NCBI GenBank assembly: GCA_013298595.1
Contig: JAAFIG010000040.1
Location: 1-44,635, forward strand
Origin: Deinococcales bacterium
GTDB taxonomy: Bacteria > Deinococcota > Deinococci > Deinococcales > JAAFIG01
Length of the DNA stretch: 44,635 nucleotides
Reading direction: 5' to 3'
Below the pieces are notes generated by a model. The model was not told the origin of the DNA, did not search any database, and was given only the letters and a program-made list of their open reading frames with translations. A program made the translations under genes and the position numbers. Shown here in pieces: positions 6,802-31,996 of this stretch (its first letter is position 1; every line of letters begins with the position of its first letter).

Positions 6802-7434
6802 TTAAGCTTCTGGGCTAGGGCTTGTTTCTTCGGCTTGAATGGTGTCATCGTGATCTTCGATGTCATCATCCTCTTCAGGAGGTAAAGGATCACTGGCTTT
6901 GAGTTTCATGGTGGCAGCTTTGAGTGTCGGAGCAACCATCATGTTCATATCCATACCAGCCAACAAAGGCGGGCTTTCAATCAAAGCGTAATCTCCGAGG
7001 GATTCTGCAACTCGAGTCAATAAACGCTCACCGAGTTCGGGGTGCGTGCGTTCACGTCCACGGAACATAATGGTCACTTTGACTTTATGTCCATCTTTTA
7101 AGAAGCGTTTGACATGGTTGAGTTTTGTATCGAAATCGCCATCACCAATTTTGACACGCAACTTAATGGATTTCACTTCTTGAGAACGAGCGCGCTTACG
7201 AGCCTCTTTTTCTTGTTGTTGTGCTTCAAAACGGAATTTACCGTAATCCAGCAAACGACACACAGGCGGAACTGTATTTGGCGAAACCATCACCAAATCC
7301 AAATTTTTTTCTTGTGCCATCCGAATTGCTTCTTTAGTGTCAATAATACCGATTTGACCACCCGCATCATCAATTAAACGTACTTGACGAACTCGAATTT
7401 GATCGTTGATCTTGTGTTCCTTAGCTACAGTCAT
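6802..7434 (-). CDS. infC: Translation initiation factor IF-3
   Basis: About 210 residues from the chosen ATG (MTVAKEHKINDQIRV). The N-domain contains VRLIDDAGGQIGIIDTKEAI, the linker LDYGKFRFEAQQQEKEARK, and the C-domain KLRVKIGDGDFDTKLNHVKRF and VTIMFRGRE. An acidic tail of about 30 residues (PPEEDDDIED) extends past the usual end. IF-3 binds the 30S subunit and checks the start codon and initiator tRNA. The start context is odd: GGAGGTGATG puts a near-perfect anti-Shine-Dalgarno match directly against the ATG, only two bases away, so initiation may be weak or regulated. A TATACT -10 (minus strand, 7456-7461) implies a 5' leader of about 15 bases. rpmI and rplT do not follow. Confidence 0.93.
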   Translation of the reverse strand: MTVAKEHKINDQIRVRQVRLIDDAGGQIGIIDTKEAIRMAQEKNLDLVMVSPNTVPPVCRLLDYGKFRFEAQQQEKEARKRARSQEVKSIKLRVKIGDGDFDTKLNHVKRFLKDGHKVKVTIMFRGRERTHPELGERLLTRVAESLGDYALIESPPLLAGMDMNMMVAPTLKAATMKLKASDPLPPEEDDDIEDHDDTIQAEETSPSPEA

Positions 7435-20456: not shown

Positions 20457-20474
20457 GATGTCCACAGTATACGC

Positions 20475-20503
20475 TTGACAGGTGGTATACCAAACGGTAC
20501 ACT
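20475..20503 (+). promoter_or_regulatory. Promoter of the lysine operon
   Basis: TTGACA (20475-20480), a 17-base spacer and TACACT (20498-20503) form the best sigma-A promoter in the window. It lies back to back with the recQ -10, and the spacer contains the palindrome GGTATACC. The predicted start is near 20510, four bases before the leader-peptide ATG. Confidence 0.75.
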
Positions 20504-20513
20504 GAAACTTGAG

Positions 20514-20558
20514 ATGAACGACGCACAGAAAAAACCGAACTTGGGGCACTCGAGCTAA
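20514..20558 (+). CDS. Leader peptide with Lys-Lys pair
   Basis: A 14-residue frame, MNDAQKKPNLGHSS, ends in TAA. It would be translated from a nearly leaderless mRNA, since its ATG is ten bases after the -10. The adjacent lysine codons AAA AAA (20529-20534) would let ribosomes report lysyl-tRNA supply. It lies upstream of an intrinsic terminator and a long operon holding lysT, lysU, lysW and lysX. To my knowledge, leader-peptide attenuation has also been reported for the lysine cluster of Thermus thermophilus. Confidence 0.55.
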   Translation: MNDAQKKPNLGHSS

Positions 20559-20582
20559 GACACTCGAGCCGATTTCAATGCC

Positions 20583-20612
20583 CCCGACCTCAAGACTGGT
20601 CGGGAATTTTTT
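20583..20612 (+). terminator. Attenuator-type terminator in the lysine operon leader
   Basis: CCCGACC (20583-20589) and GGTCGGG (20598-20604) form a strong stem followed by AATTTTTTT. It lies between the leader peptide and the phzF Shine-Dalgarno, where it would stop transcription before the first gene. GGGGC at 20543-20547 can pair with GCCCC at 20580-20584, which would break the terminator stem; this is a possible antiterminator. Confidence 0.7.
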
Positions 20613-20631
20613 TGTTGCACAAAGGAAAACC

Positions 20632-21519
20632 ATGAGCCTCGAGATTTTCACATACAACGCATTTACCAGCAATACCAAAGGTGGCAACCAAGCTGCTGTT
20701 GTCTTTGGGCTTGACCTCGAGTCTGAACAAAAAATGCAGGAACTTGCCAGTAGTATCGGTGCGCCTGCCACGGTTTTTGTGGGTATTAGCCAAACACTTT
20801 TCAAAGCTGAGTCTCCCCTACCATTAAGACTGCGCTTTTTTACCCCCGAACTCGAGGAAAATATTTGCGGACATGGCACGATTGCTGCATTACTAGCAAT
20901 ACAAACTCGAGATGGGATAAATGGTTGGTCTATGCCGAATACAGCTTTTGAAATCGAAACCAACCTTGGTATTCAACGCGCTGAACTGCAAAACAATACC
21001 GCTTGGCTCGAGTACCCTGACCCCACAGCTTGGCAAGTAGACCTTGAATGCAGCGATATTGCTGATGCCTTAGGACTCGAGGAATCCGATTTACACGAGG
21101 ACTTACCAACTATGGGAGCAGGTGTTGGGCGCAGCAAATTGGTTTGCGCGGTGCCAAGTACTGTGCTCCTTGATGCCATTGAACCAAATAACGAGCTAAT
21201 CCGAGCTTTATGTCTCGAGACCAGCACCACTGGCATTGTGATTTTTACGTTTCCTGCTCGAGGTGGTTGCTTTACAGATACTCGGCATTTTTCTGTGCAA
21301 CACAGTGTACTCGAGGATAGCGCCACAGGTAATGCCCATGCTGCACTGGCAGCGTACTTAGCCGCCAATAATTTCTTTGATAATGGCAAACGCAGTTTTA
21401 GTGGTGCTCAAGGCTACGCCATGCAGCAACCCTCGAGAATCGAAGTGCGTTTTGACGTGCAAAACAACCTTGTCTCGAGCTTATGGATTGGTGGCAAAGC
21501 CAGCGAGGTCAAACCATGA
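20632..21519 (+). CDS. PhzF-family isomerase/epimerase-like enzyme
   Basis: 295 residues from the ATG at 20632, preceded by AAAGGAAA. It has the two-lobed diaminopimelate-epimerase-like fold: MSLEIFTYNAFTSNTKGGNQ, then the active-site loop FFTPELEENICGHGTIAALL with the catalytic Glu and CGHG, and in lobe two LEDSATGNAHAALAAYL. Members isomerise small metabolites, including phenazine precursors. No phenazine genes are present. It is the first gene of the lysine operon, so a link to an amino-acid intermediate is possible but not shown. Confidence 0.8.
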   Translation: MSLEIFTYNAFTSNTKGGNQAAVVFGLDLESEQKMQELASSIGAPATVFVGISQTLFKAESPLPLRLRFFTPELEENICGHGTIAALLAIQTRDGINGWSMPNTAFEIETNLGIQRAELQNNTAWLEYPDPTAWQVDLECSDIADALGLEESDLHEDLPTMGAGVGRSKLVCAVPSTVLLDAIEPNNELIRALCLETSTTGIVIFTFPARGGCFTDTRHFSVQHSVLEDSATGNAHAALAAYLAANNFFDNGKRSFSGAQGYAMQQPSRIEVRFDVQNNLVSSLWIGGKASEVKP

Positions 21520-22319
21520 AGTACTACGATGTGTTCAGAGCAGGAGACAATGGTGGCAAACGATTTGCTGTTGTGACTGATGTTATTCCTGAATCGGTGA
21601 TGCCAGAAATTGCGCTCTCGAGCCAAGCCCCAATCACTGCTTTTGTCTCGCCCGAACCCCGCAAAAAACAATGCACTGTCCGATTTTTTACTCGAGCAGG
21701 CACAGAAAAACTCGAGTCTGATAGCGGTGCCTTGGTGGTTGCCCACTTTCTTGGCTCGAGTTGCTTGGTACAAATGCAAAACGGCAATCTGGCAGTCACC
21801 CTCGAGGATGGTTACGCATGGACAAGCCAACCTGACACGCATATTTTGCCGCTGCCCAGCCCTGAAACGCCGTGGCTCGAAGCATTGGGTTTACAAACAT
21901 CCGATCTCGAACCAGAATTAACCATGCTCTGCGCGGGAACCCTCGAGAAACACAATCTGATTGTGCCAACTCGAGAACACAGTCTAAACTTCACCCCAGA
22001 CTTTGCAGCACTAAGCAACTTATTAAAGCAATACCAATTTAACGGTTGTATTGCCGTGTGCTTCACCTCGAGTCGAGCCAATCTCGAGTACCGATTTTTT
22101 GCCCCACACAAAGGTTTACTCGAGGATAACGCAGGATCATTTTCCCTTGCCAGCATCTGCGGTTACAAAGCTGCTCATACACCCAGTGGCATGCACGATG
22201 TGATTGCGGCTCAGGGGTACACGATGAATAAACCCTCAGAGTTACGCGCTAGATTTATAACTCGAGATAGCACAGCATTAGCCATGCGCGTTGGTGGGAT
22301 TGTTACGGAGGTTGTATGA
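21516..22319 (+). CDS. Second PhzF-like protein, active site degenerate
   Basis: 267 residues. The start overlaps the previous stop as ATGA. The fold is recognisable from MKYYDVFRAGDNGGKRFAVV, VRFFTRAGTEKLESDSGALV and LEDNAGSFSLASICGYK, and from the shared end (RVGGIVTEV compared with WIGGKASEV). It lacks the Glu and the CGHG loop: the matching segment is LESDSGA. It looks like a tandem paralogue of the upstream gene that lost catalysis, perhaps forming a heteromer with it. Confidence 0.65.
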   Translation: MKYYDVFRAGDNGGKRFAVVTDVIPESVMPEIALSSQAPITAFVSPEPRKKQCTVRFFTRAGTEKLESDSGALVVAHFLGSSCLVQMQNGNLAVTLEDGYAWTSQPDTHILPLPSPETPWLEALGLQTSDLEPELTMLCAGTLEKHNLIVPTREHSLNFTPDFAALSNLLKQYQFNGCIAVCFTSSRANLEYRFFAPHKGLLEDNAGSFSLASICGYKAAHTPSGMHDVIAAQGYTMNKPSELRARFITRDSTALAMRVGGIVTEVV

Positions 22320-22672
22320 GCTTAAAAGAAACATTTGACCAATTACTGAGAGCCCTCAACGAACAAGATGCCAGTGTGCTCGAGGAAATCCTCGCCGAGA
22401 ATTATCGGTTCACAGGCACAGCCGCTCAACACCAAACCAAAGCCAGCCGAGTCAAAGGGATTCTCAAAAACCCTGTCTTTAAGCAACTACGTTTTCGCAA
22501 CATCGAATTTGAAATGCTCGAGAATACCTGCTTGGTCTTTAGTGAATTTCAATACCCAGGACACACCGACTCGAGTTTATGGTTTGGTCGTAGCACTTTT
22601 GTGTTTACAAAAATAGGTGATGCGTGGAAGCTTGTAGCACAACACAATAGCCATGTTTCAGAAGAAAGGTAA
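22316..22672 (+). CDS. NTF2-like protein in the lysine operon
   Basis: 118 residues: LKETFDQLLRALNEQDASVLEEIL, ENYRFTGTAAQHQTKASRVKG, a sheet with CLVFSEFQYPGHTDSSLWFGRSTFVF, and WKLVAQHNSHVSEE at the end. This is the DUF4440/SnoaL-like arrangement. It overlaps the upstream gene by four bases (ATGA) and precedes lysT by three bases, so it is cotranscribed. The ligand is unknown. Confidence 0.7.
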   Translation: MSLKETFDQLLRALNEQDASVLEEILAENYRFTGTAAQHQTKASRVKGILKNPVFKQLRFRNIEFEMLENTCLVFSEFQYPGHTDSSLWFGRSTFVFTKIGDAWKLVAQHNSHVSEER

Positions 22673-22675
22673 ATC

Positions 22676-23908
22676 ATGAAACCGCAAACAATGGCAGAAA
22701 AAATTCTTTCAAAAAAAGGTAACAAAACAGTCTACGCACTCGATCTCGCTGTGGTTGAAGTAGACAACGTCATGATTGTGGACAGCATCGCCGAAAGCGT
22801 GATCGAAATTCTCGAGCAAGAACTCCATGCCACCCCCAAATATCCTGAACGTGTCAGCATTGTCATCGATCATGTTGCCCCAGCCTCGAGTGTCAATGTG
22901 GCAAAATCGCATCAGGTTAGCCGTCAGTTTGCCGCAAACACAGGAGTCAAACTTTTTGATGTTGGACGCGGCATCTGCCACCAAGTGCTGATCGAAGAAC
23001 GCCTCGCTTTCCCAGGAGCCATTGTGCTTGGCTCGGATTCGCACAGCACCACATACGGCGCTGTTGCTGCGTTTGGAACTGGCATGGGCGCAACCGATAT
23101 CGCCCTTGCTGCAGCTAGTGGCAAAACATGGTTAAAAGTACCCGAAAGTGTGAAGGTTACTCTCGAGAATAAGCCCAGCCAAGATGTCAGTGCCAAAGAC
23201 ATTGCCCTCGAGATGATCCGAATACTCACTGCCGACGGCGCAACCTACATGAGCATCGAAATTCATGCGGGCGATCAATTCTCTCGAGGCGAACGCATGA
23301 CCTTAGCCAACTTATGCGTCGAAGCAGGCGCAAAAGCAGGCATGGTCGTACCGGGTGGCGAAATACTGACCATGTACGACGTACCAGATTGGGTTTACCC
23401 AGATGCAGGCGCAACCTATGTCAAAGAAATCACCATTGACTGCGCTGCCTTAACCCCACGCATGAGCGTCCCCAGTTACGTAGATAACGTCGAAAGTGTC
23501 TCGAGTTTACGGGGCAAACGCGTAGACCAAGTATTCATTGGCACCTGCACCAACGGGCGACTCGAGGATTTACAAATTGCCGCTGCGATTCTCAAAGGAC
23601 ACAAAGTTGCCAGCCATACCAGACTGCTTGTTATTCCTGCCAGTTCAGAAGTACTCGAGGCAGCCATGCAGGACGGCACACTCTTAACCATTATCCAAGC
23701 AGGCGGCACGCTTTCCACGCCCGGTTGCGGTCCGTGCATGGGCAGACACCAAGGCGTACTTGCCCCAGGTGAAGTTTGCGTTTCCACCAGCAACCGAAAT
23801 TTTATTGGGCGCATGGGCGATAAAGATGCCGAGATTTACTTAGCAAGCCCTGCCGTAGCAGCAGCCACAGCCATTATGGGAAGTATTGCCTTACCATCAG
23901 ATTTGTAA
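22676..23908 (+). CDS. lysT: Homoaconitase large subunit
   Basis: 410 residues of the aconitase/LeuC superfamily, in the short form typical of archaeal and Thermus-type enzymes. It starts MKPQTMAEKILSKKGN and contains VIDHVAPASSVNVAKSH, GSDSHSTTYGAVAAFGTGMGATD, the Fe-S ligand Cys in IGTCTNGRLEDL, and the paired ligands in STPGCGPCMGRHQGVLAPGE. Together with LysU it converts homocitrate to homoisocitrate in lysine synthesis by the alpha-aminoadipate route. LeuC function cannot be excluded from sequence alone, but lysW and lysX downstream favour the lysine role. GAAAGGT precedes the ATG. Confidence 0.88.
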   Translation: MKPQTMAEKILSKKGNKTVYALDLAVVEVDNVMIVDSIAESVIEILEQELHATPKYPERVSIVIDHVAPASSVNVAKSHQVSRQFAANTGVKLFDVGRGICHQVLIEERLAFPGAIVLGSDSHSTTYGAVAAFGTGMGATDIALAAASGKTWLKVPESVKVTLENKPSQDVSAKDIALEMIRILTADGATYMSIEIHAGDQFSRGERMTLANLCVEAGAKAGMVVPGGEILTMYDVPDWVYPDAGATYVKEITIDCAALTPRMSVPSYVDNVESVSSLRGKRVDQVFIGTCTNGRLEDLQIAAAILKGHKVASHTRLLVIPASSEVLEAAMQDGTLLTIIQAGGTLSTPGCGPCMGRHQGVLAPGEVCVSTSNRNFIGRMGDKDAEIYLASPAVAAATAIMGSIALPSDL

Positions 23909-24214
23909 TGTTCTTTCCAGTGTTTCACGACGATGAATGATAGGGGTGTAATCGATGTCTTTCTGGCTTAAACGCAACCGATACGTTGTCTCGAGGTTTA
24001 ACCAAAATTCAGCAGGGATGTCGAAAGCTGCTCCTAACTCGAGCGCTGTTTCTGGTGTGATTCGTTTTTTGGCATTAATAATTTCATTAACCATTTGTTT
24101 AGGACGACCTAAAACCGTTGCAAGTTGGCTTTGTGTCCAACCTCGAGCCTCGAGTTCGCGTTCAAGAATTCGTCCGGGCGGTATCAGTCTGCTTGGTTGT
24201 AATTTGTTTTTCAT
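23897..24214 (-). CDS. higA: HigA-type antitoxin (XRE family)
   Basis: 105 residues. IPPGRILERELEARGWTQSQLA, LGRPKQMVNEIINAKKRITPET and LGAAFDIPAEFWLNLETTYRL form the HigA/VapI signature: helix-turn-helix plus the WLNLQ-like end motif. It represses its own operon and neutralises HigB. It lies antisense to the lysine operon and its 3' end overlaps the lysT stop by 12 bases. The antitoxin follows the toxin, as is usual for higBA. Confidence 0.85.
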   Translation of the reverse strand: MKNKLQPSRLIPPGRILERELEARGWTQSQLATVLGRPKQMVNEIINAKKRITPETALELGAAFDIPAEFWLNLETTYRLRLSQKDIDYTPIIHRRETLERTLQI

Positions 24215-24222
24215 GATGCCCT

Positions 24223-24519
24223 CTAGTGATAATCTTCGATGTCGAGAATAACGAGAAATTTGCCTTCTTGATCTTTTTCTAAGCTAACGATTAAACGCCA
24301 TTGATTGTTTAAGCGGATACTTTGTTCGGAACTGCGTTTACCTTTAAGACGTTCAAAATGTAAACCTTTAATTGCATATAAGGAGCGTTCATCTGGAGCT
24401 GATTCAATAATCACCATCACTTCAAAAAAAGCTTGAATTACTGCTTCTGGATAGGCTTCTGCACCGCGTTCGTGTGTGTATAGTGCCTCGAGTTTGCGGT
24501 TCTTAAACTGGAAGTCCAT
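24223..24519 (-). CDS. higB: HigB-type RelE-family toxin
   Basis: 98 residues: MDFQFKNRKLEALYTHERGA, LHFERLKGKRSSEQSIRLNNQWRL and a DIEDYH end are the plasmid-maintenance/HigB (RelE fold) pattern, a ribosome-dependent mRNA nuclease. The conserved central segment F-x-x-L-K-G and the final D-Y-H are intact. TACTCT seven bases before the ATG (24527-24532, minus) suggests a leaderless transcript. higA starts eight bases after its stop. Confidence 0.85.
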   Translation of the reverse strand: MDFQFKNRKLEALYTHERGAEAYPEAVIQAFFEVMVIIESAPDERSLYAIKGLHFERLKGKRSSEQSIRLNNQWRLIVSLEKDQEGKFLVILDIEDYH

Positions 24520-24889: not shown

Positions 24890-25381
24890 ATGGCTCGAGT
24901 TTGGAAATTTGGTGATTCAATCAACACTGACGATATTCTACCCGGTAAATACGCACCATTTATGGCTGGCGAGGGTTTCTACAAGTATGCTTTCGCCCAT
25001 TTTCGCCCTGAATTTGCGGCTGAAGTGCAAAAAGGTGATTTGTTGGTGGGTGGGAAAAACTGGGGTTTGGGTAGCTCGAGGGAATATGCGCCAATGGCAT
25101 TGAAAAAACTCGAGATTGGTGGCATTATCGCGCAGAGTTTTGCGCGGATTCATTATCGCAATTTACTCAATCTTGGTATTCCCGCTTTTGATGATGCGAT
25201 GATTCCAAGCCTGCTCGAGGATGGCGAACTGGTTGAGTACAACCGCGACGAAGGTATTATCACTCGAGCCAGTGGCGAGGTACTGCGTTTACCACCACCT
25301 CCAGAATTTTTGCGTGAAGCCTTAAAAGAAGGCAGTATTCTCGAGTTTTACAAGAAATACCAGAAGTTTCCAGGAGAGTAA
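24890..25381 (+). CDS. lysU: Homoaconitase small subunit
   Basis: 163 residues of the aconitase swivel-domain family. MARVWKFGDSINTDDILPG, LLVGGKNWGLGSSREYAPMAL (substrate loop with GSSRE), AQSFARIHYRNLLNLG and GEVLRLPPPPEFLREAL are characteristic. It supplies the fourth domain to LysT for homocitrate isomerisation. The start at 24890 follows AAGGAAGG and excludes an upstream in-frame codon that lies inside the mazG-like gene. Confidence 0.88.
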   Translation: MARVWKFGDSINTDDILPGKYAPFMAGEGFYKYAFAHFRPEFAAEVQKGDLLVGGKNWGLGSSREYAPMALKKLEIGGIIAQSFARIHYRNLLNLGIPAFDDAMIPSLLEDGELVEYNRDEGIITRASGEVLRLPPPPEFLREALKEGSILEFYKKYQKFPGE

Positions 25382-25445: not shown

Positions 25446-25724
25446 ATGAACGTCCTTGTTGTCACTTGCCCAGATTGCTTTGAAGAACTCGAGATTAGCA
25501 CCTCGGACTGGAAAGAATTCCAGTTAGGCGATATTCTGGGTTGTAATTCCTGCGGAGCCGAACTCGAAGTGACTAGCCTCGAGCCTCCCGAATTTGAACC
25601 GCTTGGGTACAGCACCGAATGCCCAAAATGCGGCACGTTATTCCCCCTTTCCGAGGCTGATCTCGAGAATACTCGAGTCACCTGTCCAGACTGCGCCTTT
25701 TCTTTTGCGCTCGAGGACAATTAA
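25446..25724 (+). CDS. Four-CxxC zinc-ribbon protein, LysW-like
   Basis: 92 residues with CxxC pairs at Cys8/11, 33/36, 59/62 and 80/83, i.e. two zinc ribbons. The first half (TCPDCFEELEI, LGDILGCNSCGAELEVTSLEPP) is very close to the classic zinc-containing LysW layout and to the neighbouring lysW (GAEFEVVSLEPP). It lacks the C-terminal EDWGE tail that carries the growing amino acid. The second ribbon (TECPKCGTLFPLS to CPDCAFSF) is extra. It sits 22 bases before lysW. It could be a helper that presents or stabilises LysW; that is inference. The Shine-Dalgarno is weak. Confidence 0.65.
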   Translation: MNVLVVTCPDCFEELEISTSDWKEFQLGDILGCNSCGAELEVTSLEPPEFEPLGYSTECPKCGTLFPLSEADLENTRVTCPDCAFSFALEDN

Positions 25725-25746: not shown

Positions 25747-25920
25747 ATGGCAAAAATTAAATTTGAGAACCCAGAATCCGGAGCAATTATCGAACTCGAC
25801 AACCCTGAACTTGGTGAAATCGTTATTGATGATGAAACAGGTGCAGAATTTGAAGTTGTTTCCCTCGAGCCACCTCGCCTTGAAGCCGCCCCTCAAGAGG
25901 GCGAGGACTGGGGAGAGTAA
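25747..25920 (+). CDS. lysW: Amino-acid carrier protein LysW, cysteine-free
   Basis: 57 residues ending in the diagnostic EGEDWGE. The final Glu is joined to alpha-aminoadipate by LysX and protects its amino group during lysine synthesis. LELDNPELGE-like segments (IELDNPELGEIVIDDETGAEF and VVSLEPPRLEAAP) fit LysW. The four zinc-binding Cys of the Thermus protein are all absent: the corresponding positions read N, S, D and T. TAGGAG precedes the ATG. It should depend on another way of holding its fold, or on its zinc-ribbon neighbour. Confidence 0.9.
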   Translation: MAKIKFENPESGAIIELDNPELGEIVIDDETGAEFEVVSLEPPRLEAAPQEGEDWGE

Positions 25921-25962: not shown

Positions 25963-26802
25963 ATGGCTGACCTTGCCTTGATTTATGATCGTGTCCGCGA
26001 GGACGAGAAAATGTTATTTGCTGCGCTGGATGGTTTAGGTGTGGCTTACGATAAAGTTTATGCACCACATCTGAGTTTTGATTTTCATGGCGATGCACCA
26101 CCTTGGAAAGTGGTCATAGAACGTTGCGTGTCGCAATCTCGAGGGTACGCAATTGCTGCCAGTCTCGAGGCTTGGGGTGTGGAAGTGGTCAACCCGAGCC
26201 ATGTGATTGCCAATTGTGGCGATAAGCTGGTAACCAATGCGTTGCTGGCAAAGCATAAAATTCCAACACCGCGCACCCAAGTGGCTTTTGATACCGAAAA
26301 AACCCTCGAGGTGATGGATGCTGCTGGGTATCCGATAATCATGAAACCACCCGTGGGTTCTTGGGGGCGTTTGCTGAGTAAAATCAACGACCGCGATGCT
26401 GCTGAAACGGTGCTCGAGCACAAAGAAGTTCTTGGTGGGTATCAGCATCAAATTTTTTATATGCAAGAAATCATTGATAAACCTGGGCGGGATATTCGGG
26501 CTTTTGTGGCTTCTGGCAAGTGCATTGCAGCAATTTATCGCAACTCGAGCCATTGGATTACCAATACAGCTCGGGGTGGTAAAGCCGAGAATTGTGAAGT
26601 CACCGCTGAACTGGCAAGCCTCGCTGAACGCAGTGCCGTAGCGGTTGGTGGTGCGGTGGTTGCTGTGGATTTGGTCGAAGACCCAGCCCGTGGTTTATTG
26701 GTGATCGAAGTCAATCACACCATGGAATTTAAGAACAGCGTGACAACAACAGGTGTCAATATTCCGCAAAAAATTGCTGAGTACGCTATCTCGAGATTAT
26801 AA
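25963..26802 (+). CDS. lysX: Alpha-aminoadipate--LysW ligase
   Basis: 279 residues of the RimK/ATP-grasp family. [66 protein letters not shown] (ATP-grasp loop), [17 protein letters not shown] and the metal-binding [14 protein letters not shown] are the LysX signature; the N-x-T-x-E-F-K-N run distinguishes it from RimK. It attaches alpha-aminoadipate to the terminal Glu of LysW. It is the last lysine gene here. The ATG lies shortly after the palindrome at 25925-25950, without a strong Shine-Dalgarno. Confidence 0.93.
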
Positions 26803-31798: not shown

Positions 31799-31996
31799 CG
31801 TTGCCGATTTTGGTAACACTCGAGCCAGCCTCGAGCGCAGGTGTTTCACCTGTGGGCATTGGAGACAGCGGGGGCTGCCAAGCTTAATGATCCCGCCGAG
31901 ATGCGAGCATAAATAAGATTTTATTTTGCCGCGTTTTAGAGGTTGCAAGTCTAACCAAACGCGGTCTTTGTTTGGTTGTACGTAAGGAGAAAGAAC
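31799..31996 (+). promoter_or_regulatory. Structured 5' leader of rplJ
   Basis: About 200 untranslated bases with hairpins CAGGTG-TTT-CACCTG (31838-31852) and a long stem in which CCGCGTTT (31929-31936) pairs with AAACGCGG (31957-31964), enclosing GGTT/AACC. The second is followed by TCTTTGTTTGG. L10(L12)4 commonly binds such leaders to control its own synthesis; that role is inferred from position. Confidence 0.55.

Follow-up and report, generated by a model that had tools for sequence, protein, structure and literature searches.

Does the short leader ahead of a phzF gene and a set of lys genes in an uncultured member of the Deinococcales sense lysine, and if so, by which mechanism? The window, meaning the whole stretch of 44,635 nucleotides that was analysed, is a contig of a 4.58-Mb genome (G000); among named genomes, uncultured "Deinococcales bacterium" assemblies are closest to it, followed by Thermus and Meiothermus. 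The initial annotation had placed here a strong promoter, a 14-residue peptide with a Lys-Lys pair, a possible antiterminator pairing and a perfect terminator, and had read them as a lysine-codon attenuator.

Leader elements and operon content

Rereading the sequence recovered every one of these elements, from promoter to terminator, in front of phzF and the lys genes. The features of the region are as follows.

20475..20503, plus strand: sigma-70-type promoter, -35 TTGACA, 17 nt, -10 TACACT (read from the sequence)
20483..20492, no strand: TGGTATACCA palindrome in the -35/-10 spacer, probably the operator for an FCD-type GntR regulator (from site distribution)
20514..20558, plus strand: leader peptide MNDAQKKPNLGHSS, nearly leaderless (ORF read from the sequence and from relatives)
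20529..20534, plus strand: control codons AAA AAA, Lys6-Lys7 (AAAAAA in 33/33 leaders)
20543..20548, plus strand: antiterminator 5' segment GGGGCA (the terminator arm's best complement in the leader, windows starting 11-14 nt past Lys6)
20549..20568, plus strand: hairpin CTCGAG/CTCGAG whose loop contains the leader stop codon (fold prediction)
20579..20584, plus strand: antiterminator 3' segment UGCCCC (folding), with a 2-nt overlap with the terminator 5' arm
20583..20613, plus strand: intrinsic terminator, 7-bp stem, 8-nt loop, AA, T7 (read from the sequence)
20632..21519, plus strand: PhzF-type isomerase gene, first structural gene (homology)
21519..22319, plus strand: second PhzF-type gene (homology)
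22316..22672, plus strand: DUF4440/SnoaL-like protein (homology)
22676..23908, plus strand: lysT, homoaconitase large subunit (named from homology and operon context)
23897-24519, minus strand: toxin-antitoxin pair (HigB-like toxin, HTH antitoxin) in antisense orientation within the lysine operon, between lysT and lysU
24890..25381, plus strand: lysU, homoaconitase small subunit (homology)
25446..25724, plus strand: LysW-like zinc ribbon protein (homology)
25747..25920, plus strand: probable lysW carrier protein, C-terminal EDWGE (predicted from sequence)
25963..26802, plus strand: lysX, LysW-alpha-aminoadipate ligase (homology)

The promoter has 10/12 consensus matches (-35 at 20475-20480, -10 at 20498-20503), and the leader ATG at 20514 lies only 10 nt past the -10 box, so that the 5' untranslated region would be about 3-4 nt long if the start site is normal. 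GGGGC at 20543-20547 pairs with GCCCC at 20580-20584, as had been proposed, and the pairing lengthens to 6 bp through 20548:20579. The terminator stem, CCCGACC/GGTCGGG (20583-20604), is paired in 7/7 positions and is followed by AA and seven T residues (20607-20613), with an AAGGA ribosome site at 20622-20626 ahead of the phzF ATG at 20632. Three elements had been overlooked: the TGGTATACCA palindrome, the CTCGAG hairpin (arms 20549-20554/20563-20568), which nests inside the antiterminator, and the fact that the antiterminator takes only 2/7 of the terminator pairs. The earlier wording that all parts of classical attenuation are there is slightly too strong; the elements are present, but a classical 1:2 pause hairpin inside the leader ORF is not evident. 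The leader RNA folds with z = -3.3 (1/200 shuffles equally stable), and the Rfam search of the window gave no lysine riboswitch or T-box match at the gathering score.

CTCGAG itself is strongly over-represented: the window has 311 copies where shuffles predict 5.9, and G000 has 27,159, compared with 15 copies of GAGCTC, its reversed form; three family relatives (G001-G003) carry 26,600-28,200 copies, an abundance that resembles the cyanobacterial HIP1 palindrome. Elsewhere in the window (31863-31979), a ribosomal protein L10 leader was matched at the Rfam threshold (44.4 versus 44 bits) ahead of L10/L7-L12-like genes.

The lysine-biosynthesis genes lie downstream of the leader in the same direction and form a LysW-type (alpha-aminoadipate) lysine operon, in the order phzF, phzF, DUF4440/SnoaL, lysT, the antisense HigBA-like pair, an ORF, lysU, the genes of the LysW-like proteins and lysX. 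The homocitrate synthase gene hcs, normally the first of this operon, has left it in the window's genus, which lacks the usual type of hcs, and the attenuator there stands in front of phzF-phzF-lysT. A homocitrate-synthase-like gene of the Meiothermus type is instead found relocated to another contig of the window's genome (C54), behind a leader of its own, MQNYGKHWHGGSS (L098:2850-2985, minus strand; 30 bits by covariance model), in which His-Trp-His follows a single Lys codon at position 6. In two other members of the window's family, G002 and G003, the order is leader-hcs-phzF-phzF-lysT, with one or two further genes in between. Since a Meiothermus genome (G059, matching a M. granaticius contig) also has phzF between hcs and lysT, we consider phzF an old member of the lysine operon. 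We also considered whether the leader is tied to phzF itself and rejected this, as G001, a genome of the window's own genus, has phzF without the leader, and in G002 and G003 hcs stands between the two. In G001, no leader was found ahead of phzF, the preceding gene being presumably nspC, while its hcs has a weaker leader, ...DKRKAGGSS, scoring 17.8 bits with the covariance model.

A shared leader with a strict codon choice

Comparison with the leaders of relatives, which the initial annotation had suggested as a check, showed that the lysine operons of Thermus, Meiothermus, Marinithermus-type genomes and the window's family are preceded by equivalent leaders (these names were assigned to our genomes from named loci and sequence likeness). 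We scanned 947,923 bases on both strands for a TTGAC-type box, a short ORF with Lys-Lys at the right distance and a terminator. After removal of alternative starts, the scan returned 33 lysine-operon leaders, one leader from a Chloroflexi lys region and a single unrelated match, on the minus strand of the window near 6848. The common plan is a promoter (-35/-10 spacing of 17-18 nt in all relatives' leaders), an ATG 7-11 nt past the -10 box (33/33), usually 14 codons with Lys-Lys at codons 6-7 in nearly all leaders from Thermus to the window's family, and a terminator; the nearly leaderless arrangement noted before is therefore common to the relatives. Hairpins around the leader stop codon are likewise predicted in many of them. 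Such leaders precede hcs in Thermus (MLARAKKLGRRGVG), Marinithermus-type genomes (MARFAKKPGAGGAT), G003 (MISASKKQLSGDLG) and G002 (MFSAKKPSSEDASA, with Lys-Lys at 5-6), and a non-orthologous hcs in Meiothermus (MILSAKKSSAGGLV).

A covariance model (R1) built from 20 leaders, all from outside the window's family, matched the window with 33 bits (E 3.2e-8), G003 with 47 bits and G002 with 43.5 bits. The first filter required Lys-Lys and passed over the hcs leaders of G000 (K-H-W-H) and G001 (K-R-K), both of which the covariance model recovered. In the whole-genome search 150 candidates were scored per genome and the G000 hcs leader slipped through, so that silence elsewhere does not amount to absence. 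A Lys-Lys leader ahead of hcs was found in none of the f2 genomes examined and was missing from most of the f3 genomes.

The Lys-Lys pair is written AAAAAA in 33/33 leaders, its position having been a criterion of the scan and its codon not. The 12 Thermus hcs genes use AAG for all their Lys codons (AAA, 0/185). Many of the 33 leaders are closely related and do not represent 33 independent events, yet the contrast within Thermus is still strong. Rare codons sharpen sensing in leu attenuators, and the use of AAA may mean either that a rare codon sharpens the sensor here or that the A6 run itself matters, through slippage.

Similar leaders were seen beyond the lysine operons of this lineage. G008 has a like architecture (L147:1501-1627; MIASALENRGDRD) with a single CTA Leu codon and a predicted antiterminator and terminator, ahead of a gene which we take to be leuS. 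In lys regions of Chloroflexi (Anaerolineae), Lys-rich leaders follow a promoter at L129:3440-3610 (MNQNVFVKKAKKTQPDSTTLFG, whose ATG lies about 10 nt after TATAAT) and L139:3621 (MNNQFNSISLTKKAKTNIF), which suggests, from sequence, an independent or an ancient lysine attenuation.

Antiterminator placement and strength of the predicted switch

For 21 leaders, the window's included, we located the ten-base segment with the best complementarity to the terminator arm. Its start lies 10-14 nt downstream of the first Lys codon in 19 leaders and 18 nt downstream in the other two, a position that corresponds to the edge of a stalled ribosome. Pairing of each arm with its own segment averaged -17.25 kcal/mol, compared with -15.31 kcal/mol after permutation, and 0/20,000 permutations were as good; the permutation ignores relatedness, and the covariation comes mostly from the Thermus and Marinithermus-type leaders, most Meiothermus leaders pairing no better with their own segments than with those of other leaders. 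The window's antiterminator reaches -17.8 against a null mean of -11.3 with a shuffled spacer (4/200 as good), and the pairing in the window itself is of moderate strength.

Folding with the ribosome at the first Lys codon predicts the nested antiterminator, while folding with the ribosome at the stop codon predicts essentially only the terminator. In equilibrium energies, which do not include cotranscriptional kinetics, the probability of the outer terminator pair in the window rises from 0.44 for a ribosome at Lys6 to 0.99 for one that has reached the stop codon; placing the second Lys codon in the A site gives 0.61, a smaller predicted effect. As the antiterminator overlaps only 2/7 terminator pairs in the window, compared to 5/8 in most Thermus leaders and 2/7 in several Meiothermus leaders, the switch is predicted to be soft, and in these models the small overlap is the weakest point of the attenuator reading.

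From the sequence elements, their conservation and their covariation we infer a transcription start, ribosome stalling, termination and lysine response of the following kind. RNA polymerase would start about 3-4 nt before the leader ATG, and a ribosome would load on the nearly leaderless end and follow it. When lysyl-tRNA is scarce, the ribosome would stall at AAA AAA with its leading edge just short of GGGGCA, which could then pair with UGCCCC, leaving the CTCGAG hairpin of the stop codon inside the pairing and disturbing the base of the terminator, so that the polymerase would read through into phzF-phzF-lysT-lysU-lysW-lysX. With plentiful lysine, the ribosome would reach the stop codon, cover the segment (as a typical ribosome footprint implies) and melt the CTCGAG hairpin; the 7-bp terminator would then form and transcription would stop near 20607-20613.

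We give a rough probability of 85% to this reading, a ribosome-mediated transcription attenuator sensing charged lysyl-tRNA, because of the shared leader, the R1 match, the placement and covariation of the segment, the predicted shift of the outer terminator pair between the two ribosome positions, the AAA codons, the operon content and the negative riboswitch and T-box searches. What counts against it is the 2/7 overlap, the value of 0.61 at the second Lys codon, the equilibrium nature of the energies and the G001 phzF without a leader. The small overlap, the relocation of hcs with a leader of its own and the missing leader in G001 could also be explained if the attenuator was inherited with the operon and, after hcs left, mostly lost its switch and decayed to a weak constitutive terminator. 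We consider such decay unlikely, as every element is intact, including AAA AAA, the segment placement and the terminator, and as several Meiothermus leaders have an equally small overlap and yet a strongly conserved sequence.

The palindrome and a candidate amino-acid regulon

A probable second layer of control, besides the attenuator, is a GntR-type repressor that would bind the operator within the promoter spacer. The TGGTATACCA motif was defined from the lys promoter before any other site was inspected. It has 13 copies in G000, against 4 for the reversed control. Five of the 13 fall within longer ORFs; the remaining eight are adjacent to an FCD-type GntR gene or to amino-acid genes, namely at the lys leader, aroG, asd, hom, ilvB, ilvC and an O-acetylhomoserine sulfhydrylase-type gene. 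Meiothermus sites are also found at leuC and asd, and at another gene that is presumably of the chorismate-mutase/DAHP-synthase type. Relatives of the GntR protein (42-89% identity) occur in the window's family and in Meiothermus, mostly with the palindrome at their own start. In the tested genomes of Thermus, f2, f3 and f4, all GntR proteins are more distant than this and TGGTATACCA has 0-1 copies, except for three in G012 and in G047. A promoter-like site facing a divergent recQ-like gene (20466-20493, minus strand) shares the palindrome, so the operator could act both ways.

This distribution points to a probable undescribed amino-acid regulon in the window's family and/or Meiothermus, stacked on attenuation; a literature search found no published Meiothermus GntR amino-acid regulon. 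The fuller proposal, to which we give about even odds from the sequences, is that TGGTATACCA is the binding site of an undescribed general amino-acid regulator of the FCD-type GntR class, which acts on the lys leader, aroG, asd, hom, ilvB, ilvC, leuC and its own gene in Meiothermus and the window's family, and that a nearly leaderless attenuator reading the rare AAA codon adds lysine-specific control, kept while the gene behind it was exchanged. That TGGTATACCA lies within the lys promoter and beside numerous amino-acid genes would also fit the repressor being the real regulator and the terminator only trimming expression. This seems very improbable, as the Thermus leaders are conserved without the operator and the rule linking Lys-Lys and the segment would need a separate explanation. 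Chance association of an unrelated short ORF with a terminator is practically negligible, for although each element by itself turns up often (2 kb should hold 1.6 promoters and 2.3 terminators), the leader is matched by a model from other families (E 3e-8) at the orthologous operon position, and the scan, the R1 match and the segment permutation already contradict it.

Tsubouchi and colleagues reportedly described, in J Biol Chem in 2005, how a leader peptide attenuates the lysine gene cluster in Thermus thermophilus. Pathway and phylum are the same, and the Thermus leaders, with 14 codons, Lys-Lys at 6-7, segment and terminator, are orthologous to the window's. The window differs in having phzF as the first gene and no hcs behind the leader, in the predicted GntR-type operator in its promoter, and in its antiterminator, which has another sequence and a different overlap with the terminator. 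At the sequence level, the comparison supports a putative attenuator like that of T. thermophilus in all respects but the strength of the switch, and the proposal of the initial annotation is upheld by the conservation across the lineage, the segment placement and covariation, the AAA-only codons and the lysine genes behind the leader. As in the enterobacterial trp, his and leu attenuators, a stalled ribosome would select the antiterminator over the terminator; unlike them, the window's leader has a nearly leaderless start and no evident 1:2 pause hairpin in the ORF, and its antiterminator segment lies inside the coding region, where a ribosome at the stop codon would mask it. Lysine riboswitches and T-box leaders likewise control lysine genes through premature termination, and neither was matched by Rfam in the window.

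One lysine attenuator design would be common to much of an order, including the placement of the segment at the ribosome edge, and would stay in front of the operon even where the gene behind it is replaced or disappears. Its nearly leaderless peptide may serve as a model of how attenuation works when there is no ribosome-binding site, its codon rule is strictly AAA in genomes that avoid AAA, and the regulator of the TGGTATACCA sites would be a candidate general amino-acid regulator of Deinococcota that can be tested.
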